Shown here in pieces: positions 8,464 through 55,744 of a DNA stretch of 64,000 nt. Numbering within the stretch: position 1 is the stretch's first letter; every line of letters starts with the position of its first letter. Source of the stretch: a candidate division KSB1 bacterium (GTDB taxonomy: Bacteria > Zhuqueibacterota > Zhuqueibacteria > Residuimicrobiales > Krinioviventaceae). The stretch covers positions 1,488,001 through 1,552,000 of the forward strand of contig JAXHMJ010000005.1 in assembly GCA_034521575.1 (NCBI GenBank). The letters are read 5' to 3'. Under the pieces are notes generated by a model that had not been told where the DNA came from, searched no databases, and saw only the letters and a program-made list of their open reading frames with translations. A program made the position numbers and the translations under genes.

Positions 8464-10110
8464 TCAAAACTCATTATTCCGATCATAAACGAATTTCAGC
8501 ACCCAGGCATATTTGCAGGGACGCTTGTCCGGATCGTTGAGCATAGATTCCGGGATCTTGGCGGACAACGCCCAATGCTGCAGACCGGTATCCACCCAGT
8601 CCAGCGGCTGATCATGACCCAGCATATACACTTTGGTCTCCCATTTCATATTGGCATTCTGACAGATGAACGTATCGCTTTTCGGCCAGTCCAGGATGAT
8701 CGCATAGCCATAGGTACTGTCCTTGCTCATCGTATACCAAACCGGCTGCCCCAATTGGGTATTATCACACAAGGATTCATACGGCCGCGTCGCGTAAATG
8801 GCTTCACCGTTCACCTTCAACCAGTCACCCAATTCTTTCAAAAGATCTTGCTGAACCTGCGGAATCCGGCCGCTGCTCTCCGGATTGACGATGAGATTCA
8901 GATTACCGCCTTTGGCCACAATCCGGACCAGCATTTCAATCAACTCATCCGCTGTCAGATAATTCTGCAGTGAATCCATACGGTTATAGCCGTAGGATTC
9001 GCTCATGCTGCGATTCTCTTCCCAGGGATGATGCAGAGGAGTGACCACCTCGTCGGTTTCGCTGGTGTAAAAATCACCATAGTGCCGGCGGGTTTCCTGC
9101 CCCATTCGGTCATTGGCCACCACCGGTTTGTCCGCCTGATTGTAAAAATAGGCCACTATATCCGGGGTTCGATAATAAGCGGCCGGGCGCTGCCACTCAC
9201 CGTCAAACCAGAGGATATCCGGATCATAGTTGTCGATGAATCCCTTGGCCTGAGGTACGATATAATCATTAATAAAATGCTTGACCGGTATTTTGCCGGA
9301 CAAAAGACGATTGTGATAATCCGGATCAAAATCAACGTAAAACTCCCCCTCTGTTTCAGCGACCCCCGCGTTATCCGGCGCCATATTTTTTGACCACAGA
9401 CGCACTTTGAGTTCGCCGTTTTGATCCATGAGCGGATATTCGTATTCCTCAACAGAAAAGTAAGATCAACGATGTTGCGGTCCTGTGTTTTTACAGCGAC
9501 GAATTGCCCCCGCCGTCGAATCCCGGCCCGGGGACATGTTTACGGCATCGCGGTGCGTATAGGCACAATCCCAGAGACAATAGCCGTCATGATGTTTGCT
9601 GAACGGCACCAGATAGCGCGCTCCGGCTTGATTGCATAATTCGACGACCTTTGCGGCGTCAAAATGTTTCGCCGTGAACATCGGGATAAAATCATCGCGT
9701 TCAAAATCCGCACCCCAGGTTGTTTCATGATAATCCCGCAGGTTGGTGTACATATGATGCAGATACCAGTCCGGGTAGCGGGCGCGGCTCCAGCCTTTTT
9801 CGCCGTACCCGGCAACGGAATAAAGCCCCCAGTCAAAAAAGATTCCCAATTTAGCATCGATATACCAGTCCGGTGTTGGATGTGTTGCCAGCGAAGGGAG
9901 CTCTGCCTGATAATCACCACTGTTATTGGCCTGTTCAAGCTCCTGCATGTCCCGCCGCGCTTTATTTATCACATCCCGGGAAAAACATTGCCGCAATTCC
10001 TGAACAGAGTATTTGTAGTCAAAGGGTTGAAAATGTTCCGGACGCTGCTGAGCGCTGACCAGCACACTGATAAAAATAAAAAGCATGACAAACTTCATCA
10101 TTGACCTCAC
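8464..10110 (-). pseudogene. GH29 alpha-L-fucosidase, secreted, locally frame-broken
   Basis: The gene reads right to left from the ATG at 10110 (signal peptide 'MKFVMLFIFISVLVSAQ' from the inner Met). Family landmarks in order: 'WYIDAKLGIFFDWGLYSV', 'WSRARYPDWY', 'FTAKHFDAAKVVELCNQAGARYLV', 'SKHHDGYCLWD', then 'SVEEYEYPLM' and 'DILWFDGEW', which carries the expected nucleophilic Asp, then 'GGNLNLIVNPESSG'. The protein should release terminal fucose. A TGA at 9466-9468 interrupts it, but both halves are in the same frame. The segment between (about 9457-9500) makes sense only one frame over, so two compensating indels flank it. Total length (about 548 residues) is normal for GH29. The opposite strand carries the nitrilase promoter. 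Confidence 0.88.
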
Positions 10111-27661: not shown

Positions 27662-28631
27662 TTGGAAACCCATATAGCCGGACCTGTCAAGAAATCACTT
27701 GACCGCTTTGAAGAAAAATTCAAAGATTTACTCACCTCCAAAGTCTCATTCGCCGATTTTATCCTGCAGTACGTGAGCGAAAAACAAGGCAAACGAATAC
27801 GCCCTATTGTTATATTTCTTTCATCAAAATTGCACGGCGCCATTGATCATGACGCAATTCAATCTGCTCTGGTGATCGAGATGTTTCATACAGCGACCTT
27901 GATTCATGATGATGTTGTGGATGAATCCAATCAAAGACGCGGTGAACGAACCGTCAATGATCGATGGAACAACAAGACAGCCGTTCTGATCGGTGACTTT
28001 TTATTTTCAAAAACACTTGCCGGAATGGTCGAGCTGGAAAACAAAGAGGCACTGAGACTATTGGCTACAGCATCTGAAGCTATTACTGAAGGTGAGTTGC
28101 TTCAGATCGCTTCCTCAGGAAAAAGTAATCTCTCTGAATCCGAGTATTATGAGATTATCCAAAACAAAACCGCTGTTCTTTTCAGAATAGCCAGTCAATT
28201 GGGGTGTACTGTGCAATAACGGAAATCAAACTCATTTTGAGCGCATGGGAACGTTCGGCGACCATTTCGGAATGGCCTTTCAAATTATGGACGATGTTCT
28301 CGATTTTATCGGCAGCAGCGATAAAATGGGAAAACCGTCCTGTAAAGATATTCGGGAAAAAAAACTAACCTTGCCCCTGATCCATGTGATGGAACAGGAT
28401 GACAACAAGTTTTCGGCCCTGATCAGACGGGGTCTGGATAAAGGATTCAGTGAGGACGAAATTGACCACATACAAAATAAAGTTGTATCAGACGGGGGCA
28501 TTGAATTTGCAGTAAATCGCGCCGGTTTTTATGCCCAAAGTGCGTTGGAGCTCTTGTCCGTTTACCCGGACAATGAAATTCGGCAGGCTATGGAAAAACT
28601 GGTATCCTCTTCTACAAAACGAGAAAAATAA
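27662..28631 (+). pseudogene. Polyprenyl diphosphate synthase, one extra base in a G run
   Basis: Both aspartate-rich motifs of trans-prenyltransferases are present, but in different frames: 'LIHDDVVDES' with its 'GKRIRP' block in the first frame (27662-28219), and 'AFQIMDDVLDF' in the second, ending at 28631. Removing one G from the GGGG run at 28201-28204 joins them as '...ASQLGVLCNNGNQTHFERMG', which matches the spacing of the family. The joined product is about 322 residues, the normal length. It would make the long isoprenoid for quinones or glycan carrier lipid, an essential activity, so a consensus error is more likely than a true loss. Start is TTG at 27662 behind AAAGGA. The UDP-xylose synthase gene follows by 24 bp. 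Confidence 0.88.
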
Positions 28632-28655: not shown

Positions 28656-29618
28656 ATGCGAGCGCGTTCACTTGTTACCGGTGGAGCAGGATTCCTGGGA
28701 TCGCATTTGTGCGAATACCTGCTCAACAAAGGACATGATGTTATAGCAATGGATAATCTACTCACTGGCGCGATATCCAATATCGAGCATTTGCAGGGAG
28801 ATCATTTCCAGTTTATCAAACACGATGTAACCGAATATATCTTCATCGCAGGCAAAATCGATTATATCTGGCATTTTGCATCACCGGCCAGTCCGCTGGA
28901 TTATTTACAACTGCCCATCCAGACACTCAAAGTGGGCGCCATGGGGACGCACAAGGCTCTGGGATTGGCCATGGAAAAAAATGCGCGTTTTCTGCTTGCA
29001 TCTACCTCGGAAGTTTACGGCGATCCGCTGCAGCATCCGCAACAGGAATCATACTGGGGAAATGTCAATCCGGTCGGACCGCGCGGGGTTTATGATGAAG
29101 CCAAACGTTTTGGTGAAGCGCTGACCATGGCCTATCACCGGTACAACAAGGTCAATACCAAGATCGTTCGAATTTTTAACACCTACGGACCACGCATGCG
29201 CCCCAATGACGGACGCGCCATTCCCACCTTTATACCCCAGGCCCTGAAAGACGAACCCATTTCAATATTCGGAGACGGATCACAAACACGCAGTTTTTGC
29301 TACGTCCAGGATCTGATCGAAGGCATTTACCGGTTAATGATGTCCGATTATCATGAACCGGTCAATATCGGCAATCCGCATGAGATGACCATCAAAGAAA
29401 TGGCCGAGTTGATTATAGACCTGTCAAAAAGCAAAAGCAAACTCACCTTCAAACCGCTTCCCGTTAACGATCCCAAAGTCCGGCAGCCTGACACGACGCT
29501 CGCCTCTTCCTTACTCGAGTGGCAGGCCAAAGTCGATATCAGAGAAGGGTTAATGAATACCATCGAGTTTTACAAAAACCTGTTCAACGAAAAAAATCTA
29601 TGCGAATCCGGCGATTGA
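28656..29618 (+). CDS. uxs: UDP-glucuronate decarboxylase (UDP-xylose synthase) type epimerase
   Basis: A 320-residue extended short-chain dehydrogenase. The NAD-binding motif '[12 protein letters not shown]' is at the N terminus, the catalytic Tyr/Lys pair in '[11 protein letters not shown]', and the family blocks '[11 protein letters not shown]', '[14 protein letters not shown]', '[16 protein letters not shown]', '[15 protein letters not shown]' and 'DPKVRQPD' match UXS closely. It converts UDP-glucuronate to UDP-xylose, a donor for surface glycans. The UDP-glucuronate supplier, UDP-glucose dehydrogenase, is at 54356 in this window. Preceded by the prenyl synthase and followed after 49 bp by the giant secreted protein. 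Confidence 0.9.
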
Positions 29619-37090: not shown

Positions 37091-38203
37091 CTATTTGGCC
37101 AGCAGCATTTTAAAAATCTTTTCAAAGTTCCCCGCCTTTAACTTGTAAAAATACACGCCGCTGCTGACCGGGATCCCGGCGGTATCCCGTCCGCCCCATT
37201 GAACCACATGTACTCCAGCTGACATCTGATCATCGGCCAAAGTGCAAATCAACTCTCCGCGAATGTTATAGACATCCAAACGAACGAAACTTTGTTTCGG
37301 CAGCCCAAATTTTATCGATGTAGAAGGATTGAACGGATTGGGATAGTTGGTCTCTAAAAAATATTGTTCAGGCAGCCATGCATCAGTACGAACGTTTACT
37401 GTACCCACCTTGGATTCACCACCATCAACAGTAACCTGCGATAATTTGTAGGTATAAGCGGTATTCGCCTCTACATTAGTGTCAACAAATGAATACTCGG
37501 CCGGTGTTGTTGCATTGCCGGTTGCGGAAATCAAGGTTTCACTTACCCGTTGATAAATCTCTTTAGCCTCTTTCTTTTTATAAAGTTGATAGCCCAGCAC
37601 CGAACGCTCGGACTCGGTCCGCCAATGCACACACACCTGGTTTCCCTCAATATCCGCCTGCAGAGATGCCAGTTGAATGTCAATGGTGATATCCCCACTG
37701 CCTTCCAAAGTCTGAGTCAGTGGATTCAACTCGCCGTCTGTCCCGGCTGTAGAAAGCGTATGCCAGTCCACTCCGGTTTGTCCGTCGGGACTGTCAATAA
37801 ACGGCAGTGCGACTTTGATGATCGCAGTATACTGATCCGGATCGGAAGGGTAAAAATCTGTGCCCTCGGCACTGTCTACATAGTCGAGGCTAACCCAAAA
37901 AAAGGATTCATCAGCTGCATATCCGGTTGTGATATTATAAGATGCATTACCGTCCAGATTTGGATGCACCCACTCTATCATCGGATCGATTGATGAAAAG
38001 GCATCCGAATTGACATAAAAATAAAAGTCATAATGCCCCAGCGCCTGGACAGACCAGTCATCCGTACGCTTTATTTGAATATCCCAGGCAAATTCATCTT
38101 GAGAAAGTCGCAAATAATCAATTCGCGAATAGACCGTTTGTGAAAAAAGAGACACAGATGCCATTAAAAGACAGGCCCATAACGTATATCTCATCAATTT
38201 CAT
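37091..38203 (-). CDS. Secreted protein with type IX C-terminal sorting domain
   Basis: A 370-residue protein with a signal peptide (MRYTLWACLLMASVSLFSQ). The N-terminal half is a beta-rich domain of unknown function. It resembles the N-terminal domain of its upstream neighbour in layout ('VYSRIDYLRLSQDEFAWDIQIKR' versus 'LFRSIVTYNTHVLNGEYREDIQIR'). A fibronectin-III-like part follows ('VCVHWRTESERSVLGYQLYKKK ... NTAYTYKLSQV'). It ends with 'NYPNPFNPSTSIKF ... SSGVYFYKLKAG', the type A sorting domain. Its ATG overlaps the upstream stop by 4 bp (ATGA), so the two are translated together. Confidence 0.82.
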   Translation of the reverse strand: MKLMRYTLWACLLMASVSLFSQTVYSRIDYLRLSQDEFAWDIQIKRTDDWSVQALGHYDFYFYVNSDAFSSIDPMIEWVHPNLDGNASYNITTGYAADESFFWVSLDYVDSAEGTDFYPSDPDQYTAIIKVALPFIDSPDGQTGVDWHTLSTAGTDGELNPLTQTLEGSGDITIDIQLASLQADIEGNQVCVHWRTESERSVLGYQLYKKKEAKEIYQRVSETLISATGNATTPAEYSFVDTNVEANTAYTYKLSQVTVDGGESKVGTVNVRTDAWLPEQYFLETNYPNPFNPSTSIKFGLPKQSFVRLDVYNIRGELICTLADDQMSAGVHVVQWGGRDTAGIPVSSGVYFYKLKAGNFEKIFKMLLAK

Positions 38204-43899: not shown

Positions 43900-43946
43900 T
43901 TGTAATGTTTTAATGATAGCCACCATTGACTAAATTTCATAATCTT

Positions 43947-45516
43947 ATGAATTTGAAACAATTTATAACTCTTGTTTTCTTTATCACCGGTATCCTGCGT
44001 CTGTCTTTTTCACAGCATGTCAACGTCCCGTCTGATCATCAAGTTTATTCATTCTTGTCCCGTATGGAAGCAAAAGGGCTAATAGACAGTTATGAACTCC
44101 GAACCCTTCCATTGCCTCGATGGGTGATTGCGGAACTACTCAGCCGGACAGTCGAGTTAGCCACCTCTGAACCCAATGCATTGACACGCGTGGACAGACA
44201 GCGACTGCAGCGGTTCCTGGGCGATTTCCGACAAGAGTTATCCCCAGAGTTTACAAAACACGCTGATGCGGATGAGCCGCATTTTTTCACCCTGTCCGAG
44301 CCTGCGGGAAATCTTGTTACTGATCTCACCGGTTCGCAGAAAATCATCACCCATCGAAAACACTCACTGCCGGAACCGGAGTTATTGTCCCGTACATCGG
44401 TGGGAGCGCGAATACGCGGGCATCTCGGTTCTGTCATTAATTTTTACACGGAATCCCGGTTTGAAGTAAGCCGGGGAGAAAATATCGACAGCCGGTTTAA
44501 GGCATCCGAAGGAGATCCGGTTGTGACCACCGGGGAGAATGCCGTTCGCGACCGCGCCCTGGCATATGTCGCAGGCGGAACATCCTGGTTAAGATTCCAG
44601 GCAGGACGCGATGAACTCAATTGGGGGCCTTCGCTGCGCTATAATACGGCAATCAGTTATAATATGCCTCCCGCCGATCAGATCAAACTGACCAGCCGGT
44701 GGAACAGGTTTAAATTCACCAGCGTTCATGCCTGGCTGAGAAACGATTTAGGCGCAAAACATCTGACATCACATCGCCTTGATTTAAAAATAGCCAAAGG
44801 TATTTACGCAGGCGCCGGCGAATCCGTTGTCTACGGTGGACGAGGCCCGGAGCCCAGTTATCTAAATCCCATCATGCTCTATCATATTCGCAGAGCATCA
44901 TCTGGGAGACAAAGACAACAACGCCCTGTTTCTGGATGCCACTATTACCCGCTTTCCCCAATTAACTCTGTACGGTCAGTGGTTTATTGATGATATGACC
45001 GTACTTGAACTTTGGCAAAACTATTTCGGGAATAAATTCGCGTTCAATTTCGGATTCTTATGGACTGATCCCCTGGGTATTGAAAACCTGAATCTCAAAG
45101 CAGAATACACCCGAATTGATCCATTCGTGTATGCGCACAAAGATTCGATCAATATCTATACCCACTACGACAAAATCATCGGGCACCCGCTGGGTCCTGA
45201 CTCGGACTCTGCCTACCTTGGCATGCAATCATATCTGCATCGTGATTTTTCTGTCAGTACCTTTTATGAAAAAATCAGGCAAGCGGACGGTTATCCGGAT
45301 ACACACTCACGGCCTGAACAAGGAGAAGAGAAGAATTTCCTGGACGGTCGCTTTGAAACCCGGCACAAAATTGGTGTAAAAATACAAAATCAAATCCGGC
45401 GGGATATTTTTGTATCCGCTTCCTATACATATATCCATATCAATGACGCGAATCTGAAACCCGGTAAAACAGCGACAGATCAGACAGCCTGTTTTCAACT
45501 ATCATTTAATTATTAA
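43947..45516 (+). pseudogene. Wzi-like capsule-assembly outer-membrane protein, one +1 disruption
   Basis: Joined across one extra base near 44892, this gives about 522 residues with a signal peptide (MNLKQFITLVFFITGILRLSFSQ). The first frame runs through 'RFQAGRDELNWGPSLRYN', 'HRLDLKIAKGIYAGAGESVVYGGRGPEPSYLNPIMLYHI'. The second resumes at 'EHHLGDKDNNALFLDATITRFPQLTLYGQWFIDDM' and goes on to a terminal '...CFQLSFNY' strand. These blocks match capsule assembly Wzi proteins (PF14052), beta-barrels that hold exported polysaccharide at the cell surface. The C-terminal aromatic residue suits outer-membrane insertion. It directly precedes the glycosyltransferase operon, which suggests a shared role. 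Confidence 0.78.
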
Positions 45517-45611
45517 ATCCGTTTCGCGCTCTGTCCGGCTGTAGATCACCAGAAATGTTACATCATAAAGCAACGAACCAAGTTGTTTGATTTGTAATCT
45601 CGGGACATTGT

Positions 45612-46766
45612 ATGCTTTTTGCACATATTTTTATCCTGTTAACTGTTCTATACTGTTTAATGATTCTTTTATTTCTAACAGGATTGTACCGGAACAGACC
45701 GGCGCACAATCCGGAAAAATTACGGGTATCTGTGATCATTGCCGCCCGTAATGAAGAATCATATATCAGTCATGTGTTGAATGACTTGCTCAATCAGAAT
45801 TACCCGCAAGAGCTTTACGATATAACAGTGGTGGATGATTGTTCAACAGACCGTACCTGCGAAATTGTAAAATCTTTTGAACAGGCCCATGACAACATCC
45901 GCTGTATCCGACTTGAGAACGTTCCGGAAGATTTCAGTCCCAAAAAATACGCACTGGAACAAGCTGTAAAGGAATCCAAAGGTGATATTATTTTAACGAC
46001 AGACGCGGATTGTCGACTCGCACCGGACTGGATCCGGGGCATGGTTCGATACTTTGCACCGGAGACCGCCTTTGTCATAGGATTCTCGCAACTGACCCGT
46101 CCTGACAAAACATACAATCTGATAGAACACCTCCAATCGTTTGATTTTTTAGAAATGATGGGAGCCGCCGCAGGCACAGCCAACCTCGGATATCCACTCG
46201 CTGCCAGCGGACAAAATATGGGATACCGCAAATCTGTTTTCCATAAAATTGGAGGATATTCCCGGGTTAAGCATCGGATTTCCGGAGATGACGTTCTGCT
46301 GCTGAACCTGATCCGAAAGTATACAAACCATAAAATCGCATTCGCATCGCATCCGGATACCTTTGTGTTCTCGCACCCGCAGCCCACCCTCGCAGCCCTG
46401 CTCAACCAACGAATCCGCTGGGCCTCCAACGGATCGTATCAAATTCAATTGAATTTTTTATTTTTCATCTACCTGTTGCTTGTTTATATCTTTAACCTCA
46501 TGCTGCTTATCGCGTTACCCCTGAGCCTGTTGTTGCCGTCAAGTATCCCGGTCACATTGGCCTGTCTGGCCTCGCGCTTTATCTTTGAAGGAGCGCTGGC
46601 CATGAAAAGTGTAAAATTTTTCAACCGGAGAGACCTGCTGCCGTATTTCAGTCTCTGGTTTTTTGCCCAGATACCCTATATCATTTACGTTGGACTTTTG
46701 GGGACGTTCGGGCGTTTCAAATGGAAAGAACGCGTGCACTCGGCGGATTCAGGATATTGCCCATGA
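45612..46766 (+). CDS. Membrane glycosyltransferase family 2 (processive type)
   Basis: A 384-residue protein: one N-terminal helix, a GT-A catalytic domain, then C-terminal membrane helices. 'VSVIIAARNEESYISHVLNDLLNQ' is the donor-binding start, 'TVVDDCSTDRT' and 'LTTDADCRLAP' carry the Asp residues (DxD-like), and 'QRIRWASNG' is the QxxRW motif of processive beta-glycosyltransferases such as cellulose, hyaluronan and glucan synthases. It starts a four-gene cassette in which each gene overlaps the next by ATGA. The sugar used is unknown; UDP-glucuronate or UDP-xylose made by other genes here are possibilities. Confidence 0.87.
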   Translation: MLFAHIFILLTVLYCLMILLFLTGLYRNRPAHNPEKLRVSVIIAARNEESYISHVLNDLLNQNYPQELYDITVVDDCSTDRTCEIVKSFEQAHDNIRCIRLENVPEDFSPKKYALEQAVKESKGDIILTTDADCRLAPDWIRGMVRYFAPETAFVIGFSQLTRPDKTYNLIEHLQSFDFLEMMGAAAGTANLGYPLAASGQNMGYRKSVFHKIGGYSRVKHRISGDDVLLLNLIRKYTNHKIAFASHPDTFVFSHPQPTLAALLNQRIRWASNGSYQIQLNFLFFIYLLLVYIFNLMLLIALPLSLLLPSSIPVTLACLASRFIFEGALAMKSVKFFNRRDLLPYFSLWFFAQIPYIIYVGLLGTFGRFKWKERVHSADSGYCP

Positions 46767-47524
46767 AACCAGCTGTATTATTTACTCTGACTATCATTCT
46801 ATTGACGGGTACCCGGTTGCAGTCGCAGATGACCCCGGACACTATCATTGATGAATGCCTGACCTATCATATGATCTACAAAGGTCTGCATGTTGCTGAT
46901 TCGCAGCTTTTATTCAGCCAACAAAATCCGGACACGTTTTTGATAAGCTGGTATGCGAACACCCGCTCCATATTTTACCTGTTATTTCCCCTTGAAAACC
47001 TATATCGAGTTTACTGGTCTCCGTCCCTTGAACTTTACAAAATGGAAAAACGGATCAGACAAAAAAATATCGATCAGGACTGGATTATTCACTATAACAG
47101 ACAACAGCATTATGCTGTCACAAATAATGGTAAACGCTGGGAGATCGATCCCGCTTGTCGGTCCCTTCTCGGCATGGTTTATTATGTGCGACTCTACGAT
47201 CCCGATTTGGGAGATTCGTTTTCATTTGTCGCGGATATTGAAAGCGAATGCTGGCAGGTCAGCGGAACAACAACCGCCGCCGTTCAAGAGTACGATTCTA
47301 TCATCAAGCCGGAACGGGATATCCTGTTAACGTTCAAACCACTCAATGACACCAAAAACCGCTCCTGGAACTCTGACCTTTTCACCAATAATGTTTCCAG
47401 AGAAAACGCCTGTCTGCACATCAAACTGGGTCCATCGCCTCAGAGCGTACCCACCATGATCGCGTTTGAAAACACCGATAAACCGGTGCGCATGCAGCTC
47501 GTAAAAGTTGAGGACAATTTATGA
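46763..47524 (+). CDS. Secreted DUF3108-like protein
   Basis: The start is at ATG 46763, overlapping the glycosyltransferase stop and beginning a signal peptide (MKPAVLFTLTIILLTGTRLQSQ). About 253 residues. The mature chain follows the DUF3108 pattern: 'YHMIYKGLHVADSQLLF', 'NTRSIFYLLFPLENLYRVYW', 'KMEKRIRQKNIDQDWIIHYNR', 'PACRSLLGMVYYVRLYD'. DUF3108 proteins are periplasmic beta-rich proteins, possibly lipid- or glycan-handling. Here the position between two glycosyltransferases with 4-bp overlaps on both sides implies a stoichiometric partner in the same process. Confidence 0.75.
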   Translation: MKPAVLFTLTIILLTGTRLQSQMTPDTIIDECLTYHMIYKGLHVADSQLLFSQQNPDTFLISWYANTRSIFYLLFPLENLYRVYWSPSLELYKMEKRIRQKNIDQDWIIHYNRQQHYAVTNNGKRWEIDPACRSLLGMVYYVRLYDPDLGDSFSFVADIESECWQVSGTTTAAVQEYDSIIKPERDILLTFKPLNDTKNRSWNSDLFTNNVSRENACLHIKLGPSPQSVPTMIAFENTDKPVRMQLVKVEDNL

Positions 47525-48633
47525 TTGCCCTCGTATTGGCATTGCTGTATATGTGTTTCGGACTGTTTATGTTCGGGTCTATCAGAAAAATCCGCTATCC
47601 TCTATCCGTTCTTCCTTCAGTATCGGTCATTGTTGCATGTAAAAATGAAGCAAAAACCCTGCAAACCAGCTTGAATTCATTGACCAAACTGGATTACCCA
47701 TCAGACAAACTTGAAATTATCATGGTCGATGATGGATCTCAGGATAACTCGTTTGACATCATTCAGGCATTTGTGTGCAAAAACAATAAAATATCCTGTT
47801 TACGACTGGATCCTCTTGAAAAAACAAAATCCGGCAAGGCGGGCGCCATCATGAAAGGAATCGAAAAAAGCAGCGGAGAGTTTATATTTATAACGGACGC
47901 CGACTGTTCCGTCCCCCCAACCTGGATCAAAGGTTTGCTCTCAGCTTTTGACGCTCAAACCGGTATCGCGGGAGGATTTACTCTGGCGCCGCCCCGTCTC
48001 GCTGTTTTTCAAAAGATGCAAAATATAGATCTTTTATATCTGCTCAGCGTCGCATCCTCAACTTCAGCCCTTGACAAACCCACCAGCTGGGTGGGTAACA
48101 ATATCGCTGTCCGAAGAGAGGCGTACGACAGCATAGGCGGTTATGCAGCCCTGGATGACAGTCTGGTGGAGGATTTTGCATTAATTGCAGCGCTGGACAA
48201 ACAAACCCGATGGAAAAGCTGCTTTTGTCCCTCTCCCCAAACTGCAGTTCAAAGCAGGCCCCCTCAAACCCTGCGGGACTGGTACAATCAACGCAAACGC
48301 TGGGCCTGCGGAATTCCGCAAATGCGCCCCCTCGGTCTGATGATCATGATTTTGAGCTTTCTGGCACACCTGGGAGTGCTTGTCTCCGTGTTTAAAAGTC
48401 CGTTCTCCCTTTTTCTGCTTTGTATTTTCATTATGATCTGCATTGATTATGCCCTGATTTATAAAACATCACGGTATTTGCAGTATTCATTCAACTTGAT
48501 ACACTTTGTATTTTTTCAATTTTACTACTTTGCTTACTCGAGCTTACTGCCGTTCTTTCTATTCTTTGACCGCACTGTTGTCTGGAAAGGCCTTACCTAT
48601 CGCACCCGGAATAAGCGTCAGGTTCGCGTATGA
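47521..48633 (+). CDS. Second membrane glycosyltransferase family 2 (processive type)
   Basis: A 370-residue GT2 with an N-terminal helix, catalytic domain and C-terminal helices. Motifs: 'VSVIVACKNEAKTLQTSLNSL', 'IIMVDDGSQDNSFDI', 'FITDADCSVPPTW' and the QxxRW motif 'WYNQRKRWACG'. It is clearly related to the GT2 at 45612 but diverged, so the two probably add different sugars or act at different steps. Overlaps both neighbours by 4 bp. Confidence 0.87.
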   Translation: MIALVLALLYMCFGLFMFGSIRKIRYPLSVLPSVSVIVACKNEAKTLQTSLNSLTKLDYPSDKLEIIMVDDGSQDNSFDIIQAFVCKNNKISCLRLDPLEKTKSGKAGAIMKGIEKSSGEFIFITDADCSVPPTWIKGLLSAFDAQTGIAGGFTLAPPRLAVFQKMQNIDLLYLLSVASSTSALDKPTSWVGNNIAVRREAYDSIGGYAALDDSLVEDFALIAALDKQTRWKSCFCPSPQTAVQSRPPQTLRDWYNQRKRWACGIPQMRPLGLMIMILSFLAHLGVLVSVFKSPFSLFLLCIFIMICIDYALIYKTSRYLQYSFNLIHFVFFQFYYFAYSSLLPFFLFFDRTVVWKGLTYRTRNKRQVRV

Positions 48634-49613
48634 TCCCACCGTTGCTCTTACATTATTATATCACACTTCGCTGCAATTGTCAGTGTACGTTTTGTGATAT
48701 CCAAAAACCGGTTGATGCCGATTATTCTGATATTGTCCAAAATCTGCGCCATGGACGCGATATGCATATACCGTTTGTTGATTTCACCGGCGGTGAACCA
48801 CTGCTGCACCCTCAATTGCCTGACATGCTGGAACAAGCGCAACATCTGGGATATAGAACCAGCGTAACCACCAATGCACTGCTCTATCCGGAACGGGCAG
48901 AGGAACTAAAGGGGTTAATCAATTTTTTTCATATTTCTCTGGACTCGCTCGATCCGGCACAGCACAACAGCATCCGGGGACGTCCTGTGTACGACCGGGT
49001 TATGCAAAGCCTGGACACAGCGGTTCGTTTGGGAGAACAGCCGGATATTTTATATACAGTTACACCACAAACTATCGGACAACTTGATGCCATGGTCCGG
49101 TTTGCGCAGCAACTGCGGCTCGTTCTGATCCTCAACCCGGTTTTTACACGCTCTAAACTAGAGCCCGAACACCTTGCAAAGCTCGAACGCTATGCCGCCT
49201 CCCCGTTTATTTATGTCAACAAAGCCTTTCACCACCTGCGCCGCAATGGTGGAAATCAAATTCAGTCACCCCGCTGCCGCGTCATGGACGCCGCAGTTGT
49301 GATATCTCCGGACAATAAACTGCTCCTGCCCTGTTTTCATTATGCCCAAACCGCTCTTCCCATCACCGGACCGCTGGCGGCACTGAGACAGCAGCCGGAA
49401 TGGAAATACTATCAAAAGAATCAAGGCAGATTATCCGTCTGTCAGGGATGTGATTTGAACTGCTATTTCGATCCGTCATTTCATTATCAATTCGACATAT
49501 TTTTTCTGGAAAGTATTGTTGCCAAAATGCGTTACACCTATCATAAACGAAAACCCCCTGTAAAAACAGCGTCCGCACTTTTAATTGCTGAACACTGTCG
49601 AAAAAAAGCTTGA
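48630..49613 (+). CDS. Radical SAM enzyme with SPASM/twitch-like C-terminal cysteines
   Basis: A 327-residue enzyme. The 4Fe-4S/AdoMet motif CxxxCxxC is in 'LRCNCQCTFCDIQ' near the N terminus, followed by 'FVDFTGGEPLLHPQLPDML' and 'SVTTNALL', normal for the radical SAM core. The C-terminal part has further cysteines ('SPRCRVMDAAVVISPDNKLLLPCFHY', 'VCQGCDLNCYF') that could bind an auxiliary cluster as in SPASM or twitch proteins. Such enzymes modify peptides, sugars or lipids. No precursor peptide gene was seen, and tight coupling to two glycosyltransferases favours a glycan or lipid substrate. Confidence 0.85.
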   Translation: MIPPLLLHYYITLRCNCQCTFCDIQKPVDADYSDIVQNLRHGRDMHIPFVDFTGGEPLLHPQLPDMLEQAQHLGYRTSVTTNALLYPERAEELKGLINFFHISLDSLDPAQHNSIRGRPVYDRVMQSLDTAVRLGEQPDILYTVTPQTIGQLDAMVRFAQQLRLVLILNPVFTRSKLEPEHLAKLERYAASPFIYVNKAFHHLRRNGGNQIQSPRCRVMDAAVVISPDNKLLLPCFHYAQTALPITGPLAALRQQPEWKYYQKNQGRLSVCQGCDLNCYFDPSFHYQFDIFFLESIVAKMRYTYHKRKPPVKTASALLIAEHCRKKA

Positions 49614-54355: not shown

Positions 54356-55744
54356 ATGTCCGCCGCAACATTCGAAAAAAAGATACTCTGTATAGGCGCG
54401 GGTTATGTGGGCGGCCCCACCATGGCAATGATCGCGGCAAAATGCCCGCAGTACAAAGTCACAGTTGTAGATATCAATCCGGATAAAATTAAAGCCTGGC
54501 AGTCGGAGGACTTGCCGATCTATGAACCCGGTTTGCTGGATGTCGTTAAACAGGCGCGCGACCGCAATCTGTTTTTTTCCACTGACATTACGAATAATAT
54601 CAAAGAAGCTGATATTATTTTTGTATCGGTCAACACACCCACAAAAACTTTTGGAGAAGGAGCGGGAAAAAGTGCGGACCTGCAATACTGGGAAAAAACA
54701 GCCCGCGATATTATGCACGCATCCGAATCAGACAAAGTCATCGTCGAAAAGAGCACGCTGCCCGTGCGTACAGCAGCGGCGATGGAACGGATTCTGCGCG
54801 CCAATGACAAGGGCATTCATTTCGAAATCGTATCCAATCCTGAATTTCTGGCCGAAGGCACTGCGATCCAGGACCTAAGAAACCCGGACCGCGTCCTCAT
54901 CGGAGGCCGGGAAACCGAAACAGGCAGAAAAGCCAGACAGGACATTGTTGATATATACGCAAACTGGGTACCCGGAGACCGAATCCTGACAACCAATTTA
55001 TGGAGTTCCGAGCTTTCCAAGCTCGTGGCCAACGCATTTCTGGCCCAGCGAATTTCTTCGATCAATTCCATATCCGCCCTGTGTGAACAAACCGAAGCAG
55101 ACGTGACCGAGGTATCGCGGGCCATCGGCAAAGACAGCCGCATCGGCAGCAAATTTTTGAACGCCAGCGTGGGATTCGGAGGCAGCTGTTTCAAAAAAGA
55201 TATTTTAAATCTGGTCTACATTGCAGAATCCTATGGTCTCTATGACGTGGCCGCCTACTGGGAACAGGTGGTCAAGATGAACGAGTATCAGGAACACCGG
55301 TTTGTGCGCACCATGATCCGGGCATTGTTCAACACCGTGGCCAACAAACGCATCGCTCTGTTTGGGTTCGCATTCAAAGCCAATACCGGAGATACCCGTG
55401 AATCCCCGGCCATAACCATCACACGCCGACTGATTGAAGAACATACCAATGTGACCATTACCGATCCCAAAGCCATTCCGAACGCCAAACTTGACCTGCA
55501 GGACATTCAGACTGAAATTGAATTTGAAGCAGATCCCTATCGGGCTGCCGAAAATGCGCATGCTATTGCAATCCTGACAGAGTGGGATGAATATAAACAC
55601 CTGAATTATCAAAAAATCTTTGACAGTATGCAAAAGCCCGCATTTCTGTTTGACGGCCGCAATATCCTGGACCGGGAAGAGATGTTTAAAATCGGATTTA
55701 ATATGTACAGTATCGGCCATCCGGCCCTGTCGCATCTCGATTAA
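54356..55744 (+). CDS. ugd: UDP-glucose 6-dehydrogenase (animal-like UGDH type)
   Basis: A 462-residue NAD-dependent enzyme that oxidises UDP-glucose twice to UDP-glucuronate. The NAD motif is 'ILCIGAGYVGGPTMAMIA' at residues about 9-26, the catalytic Cys in 'GFGGSCFKKDILNLVY' (about 277) and the C-terminal UDP-binding block 'GFAFKANTGDTRESPA'. Sequence features such as 'ADIIFVSVNTPTKTFGEGAGKSADLQYWEKTARDI' match the class found in animals and plants more than short enterobacterial Ugd. An AGGAGG lies 8 bp before the ATG. With the UXS-like enzyme at 28656 it would supply UDP-xylose. Confidence 0.94.
   Translation: MSAATFEKKILCIGAGYVGGPTMAMIAAKCPQYKVTVVDINPDKIKAWQSEDLPIYEPGLLDVVKQARDRNLFFSTDITNNIKEADIIFVSVNTPTKTFGEGAGKSADLQYWEKTARDIMHASESDKVIVEKSTLPVRTAAAMERILRANDKGIHFEIVSNPEFLAEGTAIQDLRNPDRVLIGGRETETGRKARQDIVDIYANWVPGDRILTTNLWSSELSKLVANAFLAQRISSINSISALCEQTEADVTEVSRAIGKDSRIGSKFLNASVGFGGSCFKKDILNLVYIAESYGLYDVAAYWEQVVKMNEYQEHRFVRTMIRALFNTVANKRIALFGFAFKANTGDTRESPAITITRRLIEEHTNVTITDPKAIPNAKLDLQDIQTEIEFEADPYRAAENAHAIAILTEWDEYKHLNYQKIFDSMQKPAFLFDGRNILDREEMFKIGFNMYSIGHPALSHLD

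Follow-up and report, generated by a model that had tools for sequence, protein, structure and literature searches.

Among described systems, the HpnI-HpnK-HpnJ pathway to bacteriohopanetetrol cyclitol ether combines a lipid glycosyltransferase of family 2 (GT2), a deacetylase and a radical S-adenosylmethionine (SAM) enzyme, while ceramide glucosyltransferase adds one sugar to a lipid. The same enzyme logic can be recognised around an operon that we analysed in a 64,000-nucleotide stretch of DNA (the window; contig JAXHMJ010000005.1, positions 1,488,001 to 1,552,000 of the forward strand) from a bacterium of candidate phylum KSB1, whose genome comprises 5.26 Mb in 5 contigs. Its four genes encode a membrane-bound GT2 (GTA), an exported DUF3108-type protein, a second membrane-bound GT2 (GTB) and a radical SAM enzyme (rSAM2), and are preceded by a gene for a Wzi-type outer-membrane barrel. 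Several of these components have described counterparts. The radical SAM enzyme BlsE is a cytosylglucuronate decarboxylase, acting on the sugar-acid part of cytosylglucuronic acid (PMC3715490), a YmcC-like fold has been reported for a DUF3108 protein (PMC4364669), and EipB is a periplasmic, LolA/LolB-like protein required for envelope integrity (PMC10787603).

We propose, with slightly better than even confidence, that the operon makes up the 3' half of an envelope pathway conserved in KSB1 and the wider Fibrobacteres-Chlorobi-Bacteroidetes (FCB) group, in which a membrane lipid receives a short glycan to give a glycolipid or lipid-linked oligosaccharide. An original prediction from the window sequence had described a candidate surface-glycan unit, in which an exported DUF3108-type protein and two different GT2s accompany a radical SAM enzyme and an adjoining Wzi-type barrel. 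That picture holds, and the set appears, as had been suggested, to be undescribed: searches of the openly accessible literature on DUF3108, on glycosphingolipids with radical SAM enzymes, on radical SAM enzymes with deacetylases and flippase-like proteins, and on PF14052 yielded no account of it.

A gene set conserved in KSB1 and beyond

Across 82 genomes of the phylum, an operon-type DUF3108 ortholog occurs in 35, rSAM2 in 30 and both in 26 (Fisher p = 7e-10, uncorrected for phylogeny). The two genes share a contig in 24 of those 26 genomes and lie 1.0-2.3 kb apart in 23 of them. Relatives from the same order and class have the gene order Wzi-GTA'-GTA-(rSAM1)-DUF3108-GTB-rSAM2-PHP, where GTA' is another GT2 and PHP a CehA/McbA-type hydrolase, and GTc-methyltransferase-UPF0104-GTd, with two further GT2s, often stands upstream of Wzi; the full set spans 9-12 genes. 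One locus, L102, carries the complete run uninterrupted and without rSAM1. The latter is a second, different radical SAM/SPASM gene between GTA and DUF3108, seen at L068:7034-8104 and also at L064, L065, L066 and L080. Four genomes have rSAM2 without the DUF3108 ortholog; two of these (G066 and G070) carry GT2-UPF0104-GTd-deacetylase-GTB-rSAM2-PHP in one run.

The predicted unit is therefore borne out by gene order conserved across related genomes. We reject the notion of a four-gene system, however, as the four genes form the 3' part of the larger set, which is partly dispersed here. The window genome keeps the set at four places on the same contig (Table 1), minus GTA' and rSAM1, for which an ortholog search of this genome found nothing. 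That GTA, DUF3108, GTB and rSAM2 stayed together while the other components dispersed is good evidence that they are the tightest part of the set.

A profile scan for rSAM2 extended this distribution to 79 loci, in KSB1, Latescibacterota, Zixibacteria, Fibrobacterota, Ignavibacteria, Chlorobi-type bacteria, some Bacteroidota and a few others; matches in Thermoplasmata are just 28-35% identical and may represent another subfamily. A GTB-type GT2 lies immediately 5' of rSAM2 in about 40 of the 79 loci. In a tree of 64 GT2s, five orthologous clades were recovered (GTA, GTA', GTB, GTc and GTd); the two Ignavibacterial transferases group with GTd and GTB. Since GTd, UPF0104, GTB and rSAM2 recur together in Ignavibacteria, they look like an old core; DUF3108, Wzi, GTA, GTA', GTc and the methyltransferase seem to have been added in KSB1-type bacteria. 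A NodB-family polysaccharide deacetylase recurs in related clusters, including those of Ignavibacteria and class-level relatives, and the UPF0104 and deacetylase families are both present in the core cluster. The gene set is thus real and ancient, and spans a superphylum of mostly uncultured bacteria.

Table 1. Positions of the operon, its gene overlaps and the dispersed members of the set in the window genome (window coordinates unless a contig is named)
Feature	Position	Strand	Basis
Wzi-type outer-membrane barrel gene (PF14052), frame-broken as sequenced	43947..45513	+	Pfam search, tblastn, intact orthologs in relatives
GTA, membrane-bound GT2, 384 aa, GDD + QRIRW	45612..46766	+	Pfam, motifs, tree
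Divergent DUF3108-type exported protein, 253 aa	46763..47524	+	Orthologs, AlphaFold2 model
GTB, membrane-bound GT2/GT21-like transferase, 370 aa, VED + QRKRW	47521..48633	+	Pfam, profile match, tree
rSAM2, radical SAM enzyme, 327 aa	48630..49613	+	Pfam, conserved cysteines, AlphaFold2/structure match
ATGA stop/start overlap, GTA-DUF3108	46763..46766	+	Sequence
ATGA stop/start overlap, DUF3108-GTB	47521..47524	+	Sequence
ATGA stop/start overlap, GTB-rSAM2	48630..48633	+	Sequence
GTc-methyltransferase	contig C5, about 792-794 kb		Ortholog search
GTd-UPF0104	contig C5, 1589-1591 kb		Ortholog search
PHP, still beside Mpl + R3H as in relatives	contig C5, 1768-1770 kb		Ortholog search

The 4-bp ATGA overlaps are present at all three junctions of the operon, as predicted. 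The fixed product ratios that had been read from them do not follow. The triple pattern is not kept in relatives, where intergenic gaps are mostly -4 to about +40 bp, and a further ATGA overlap joins two unrelated genes on the - strand of the window (38200-38203). The overlaps thus show tight packing that is not special to this operon, and we reject them as a conserved sign of fixed stoichiometry.

The Wzi-type gene does lie just upstream of the operon, as had been stated, but as sequenced it is not intact. One extra base near 44889 splits it into open reading frames (ORFs) 43926-44990 and 44995-45516, and tblastn with an intact relative places its halves in different frames (43953-44888 and 44890-45513). 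Against PF14052 the N-terminal part scores 27.9 bits, under the cut-off, and the C-terminal part 39.1 bits, over it; relatives have intact orthologs at the corresponding place (e.g. L102:4078-5682, 79.8 bits against a cut-off of 30.1). Because single-frame breaks also affect the GTd, UPF0104 and Mpl-like genes of this genome, which suggests an indel-prone assembly, an assembly indel appears likelier here than a dead gene, and we judged decay to a pseudogene the less likely course. By eye, two other genes of the window probably carry the same kind of indel: a fucosidase-like gene (8464-10110, -) that is apparently broken into a pair of ORFs, and a polyprenyl synthetase-like gene (27662-28219, +) that stops early. 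The description of the barrel as capsule-holding had come from the Wzi family name only. In two genera of the same family, Wzi and GTA' are replaced by a GH5-type lipoprotein-like gene directly before GTA (L062:183-1853 and L029:6271-7899).

The enzymes and the exported protein

Both transferases belong to the GT2 family (PF00535/PF13641), with PF00535 scores of 92.7 bits for GTA and 91 bits for GTB, and both also match PF13506 (Glyco_transf_21). The QxxRW motif that the original prediction reported is present in each, at residue 266 in GTA and residue 257 in GTB, and the DxD and QxxRW motifs are invariant in the GT2 ortholog alignments. QxxRW is also found in non-processive ceramide glucosyltransferases, however, and does not show processivity. 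The GTB profile aligns from 6 to 368 of its 374 positions with residues 17-381 of ceramide glucosyltransferase 26qf (E 1.7e-20), a full-length homology to family GT21 that includes the membrane parts. GTA forms its own orthologous clade, at 49-52% identity to relatives. The two proteins flanking the DUF3108 gene do differ in sequence, as had been noted.

These data bear on the polymer that the original prediction envisaged, in which processive GTA and GTB would polymerise and extrude a two-sugar exopolysaccharide or capsule for rSAM2 to modify and Wzi to hold. The QxxRW motifs, the Wzi-type barrel, the polysaccharide deacetylase of related clusters and the rank of PgaC/IcaA (TIGR03937) as top NCBIfam family of both GT2s would all suit such a product. 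Against it, the PgaC/IcaA scores (83.3 and 87.7 bits) are a fifth of the equivalog cut-off of 422.3, the GT2s have few hydrophobic segments by crude hydropathy, and GTB resembles ceramide glucosyltransferase along its full length. Furthermore, the conserved neighbourhood, to which the search was confined, showed no recognisable Wzx/Wzy/Wza-like, BcsC/PgaA-like or ABC export genes. Nor is the count of two sugars supported, given that four of the set's transferases (GTA, GTB, GTc and GTd) remain in the window genome, with five in relatives; five parallel clades better fit stepwise transfer. We consider a processive two-sugar polymer unlikely.

The radical SAM enzyme matches PF04055 at 73.8 bits with an invariant C15-x3-C19-x2-C22 (CxxxCxxC) motif. 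The extra cysteines for which it had been singled out are genuine, five of them (216, 235, 271, 274 and 278) being invariant in 55 sequences. They suggest a partial SPASM/twitch-like domain with one extra cluster; the window protein gives no Pfam match to SPASM (PF13186). Its AlphaFold2 model (pLDDT 93.5) and its sequence both have BlsE as nearest solved relative (sequence 5e-21; fold E 1.7e-13, TM 0.68), and we treat BlsE-like chemistry as a lead only. SuiB and SkfB are also among the fold matches and, together with the auxiliary-cluster cysteines, would accord with maturation of a ribosomally synthesised and post-translationally modified peptide, with rSAM2 maturing a peptide as a SPASM-type enzyme and the two GT2s glycosylating that peptide. 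Yet the neighbourhood clusters, which cover ORFs from about 100 aa upwards, contain no short conserved precursor, the Pfam SPASM model is unmatched and the GT2s are membrane-bound, which makes a peptide product highly improbable.

The DUF3108 assignment was right for the family, although the window member itself is too divergent to be recognised. It has no match to PF11306 even at E<=1, nor in the whole-genome family search, whereas all 30 other sequences in its 31-member ortholog alignment are recognised by the model at E<=0.1 (best 1.7e-20). On this alignment, we take the window protein to be a divergent ortholog of DUF3108 proteins. Used as a single query it found no match in a search of the genome contigs; 37 of 99 relatives contain a match to it, the best outside the species having an E of 5e-41. 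Among the invariant positions are F75, N79, Y81, Q100, N102, E160, R200, W202 and D205. The N-terminus is signal-peptide-like, judged by eye, and the AlphaFold2 model (pLDDT 87.3, pTM 0.81) is a beta-rich half-barrel, for which a Foldseek search of the PDB returned EipB (DUF1849, 6ntr, E 4e-5, TM about 0.6), then LolA and, more weakly, the glycolipid-binding LprG. At one locus of family f7 (L057:9395-11957), a DUF3108 ortholog is followed directly by the PHP hydrolase gene, with neither GTB nor rSAM2; from this adjacency, the two may be a functional pair in their own right.

A proposed pathway and its lipid acceptor

The analysis establishes the conservation of the gene set, the orthology of its members, their predicted folds and their cofactor motifs; that these proteins act in a single pathway we infer, together with the order and topology of its steps, its lipid acceptor and its sugars. 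GTc, GTd, GTA', GTA and GTB would add sugars singly at the cytoplasmic face of the inner membrane, with a NodB-type deacetylase acting in between in several lineages. rSAM2 would then edit a sugar or head group through hydrogen-atom abstraction, for example by decarboxylation, epimerisation or dehydration (BlsE acts on a hexuronic acid). The UPF0104 (LPG_synthase_TM) protein may flip the product or help to flip it, the DUF3108 protein, as a LolA/EipB-like periplasmic half-barrel, may bind or ferry it, and the Wzi-type barrel may anchor or display it in the outer membrane, while the CehA/McbA-type hydrolase would trim or recycle an intermediate. By eye, the window also holds a UDP-glucose 6-dehydrogenase-like gene (54356-55744) and a UDP-glucuronate decarboxylase-like gene (28656-29618), which could be sources of UDP-GlcA and UDP-Xyl.

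Ceramide, undecaprenyl phosphate and lipid A are candidate acceptors. Ceramide is attractive because the cluster in Ignavibacteria (L114/L120) lies beside serine palmitoyltransferase (SPT)-like, CerR-like and GNAT acyltransferase-like genes, and the window genome has an SPT-like/CerR-like pair of its own. The SPT-like and CerR-like genes are divergent in both (L114:2088-5517 in Ignavibacteria, L148:6998-9484 in the window genome), the Ignavibacterial SPT-like gene scoring 514 bits with its best model, NF047600, under the cut-off of 640; judged from these genes, ceramide synthesis is probable in these candidate phyla. The flippases and carriers of bacterial sphingolipids have been described as unknown (PMC11087976).

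An acceptor related to lipopolysaccharide (LPS) stays a candidate, as LpxC is present in 30 of 30 rSAM2-bearing genomes, whereas family f10 has no LpxC, DUF3108 ortholog or rSAM2 in 8 of 8 sampled genomes. These f10 genomes, all of the same class (G026, G031, G036, G039, G042, G045, G048 and G051), possibly represent an LPS-free lineage among LPS-bearing relatives. The presence of LpxC in every rSAM2-bearing genome led us to reject the unit as an LPS replacement. In a further reading, the transferases would act on lipid A-core, rSAM2 would edit a core sugar, and DUF3108 and Wzi would help to display the product. The LpxC pattern speaks for this, but many LpxC-bearing families are without the unit (f9, f11 and f15), so that the correlation may be phylogenetic, and the clusters show no recognisable heptosyl or Kdo transferase or ligase. 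Decoration of the LPS core or lipid A thus seems to us quite improbable.

A bacteriohopane head-group pathway after the model of HpnI-HpnK-HpnJ deserves next to no credence. It would account for sub-threshold matches to HpnI, HpnB and HpnH, but rSAM2 reaches 44 bits against the HpnH cut-off of 225, short of an HpnH/HpnJ assignment, and GTB 79 against 310 for HpnI. No squalene-hopene cyclase domain was found in the window genome, which excludes a hopanoid acceptor there, and the domain is absent or marginal in most cluster-bearing relatives.

Several observations weigh against the lipid-linked glycan that we favour. Firstly, its ceramide form rests on one Ignavibacterial lineage; SPT occurs in 68 of the 82 phylum genomes regardless of rSAM2 and is missing (E<=1e-100) in three that bear it, a pattern that does not support ceramide as a phylum-wide rule. 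Secondly, the matches of GTA to solved structures are partial, and the top NCBIfam match of both GT2s remains the polymer synthase family, though far below threshold. Thirdly, the DUF3108 model aligns modestly with its Foldseek matches (TM 0.3-0.6, rmsd 5-11 A), and in families f3 and f7 DUF3108 orthologs are found in the absence of rSAM2, which points to a role independent of the radical SAM enzyme. More generally, the links from fold to function are ones that we infer throughout.

We put forward a more specific version only tentatively, as a possibility rather than an expectation: a glycolipid of the outer membrane, perhaps a glycosphingolipid, with a sugar that the radical SAM enzyme would rewrite, and which the DUF3108 protein would carry across the periplasm, in an undescribed pathway of the FCB superphylum. 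If true, this would give the DUF3108 domain its first role, as a glycolipid chaperone. Knowledge of envelope lipids is scant for KSB1/Calditrichota-like bacteria, Zixibacteria, Latescibacterota, Fibrobacterota and Ignavibacteria, and a set of such conservation, in which a radical SAM enzyme is tied to a glycosyltransferase of lipid type, predicts modified surface glycans of a class that could be sought by lipidomics. DUF3108, UPF0104 and CehA/McbA-type proteins, usually annotated by fold or family only, are thereby placed in one testable pathway.

Comparison with described systems

Each component resembles a described protein and departs from it. The DUF3108-type protein is a predicted exported beta half-barrel like the YmcC-type fold, EipB, LolA and LprG, with its closest fold matches in EipB and LolA, but it lies below Pfam detection and its family has conserved motifs of its own (QxNIxQ and RxWkTDLlTNR). 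Intact orthologs of the barrel match the family of the capsule-anchoring protein Wzi; here, by contrast, no capsule polymerase or export genes were recognised nearby, the window copy is frame-broken and glycan binding is putative. BlsE is nearest to rSAM2 in both sequence and fold, and acts on a glycosidic sugar acid (PMC3715490), yet identity is about 18% and rSAM2 is tied to membrane GT2s. GTB shares with UGCG and HpnI, lipid glycosyltransferases of GT21 and GT2, an N-terminal anchor, QxxRW and a hydrophobic C-terminus, in addition to its full-length UGCG alignment, although identity is low and HpnI equivalence is not reached.

The nearest parallel at the level of a pathway is the hopanoid system. 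With neither equivalog-level homology to HpnI-HpnK-HpnJ nor a hopanoid backbone enzyme in the window genome, the two may share pathway logic only: in both, a lipid GT2 and a radical SAM enzyme are combined, and the clusters of Ignavibacteria and class-level relatives add a deacetylase.

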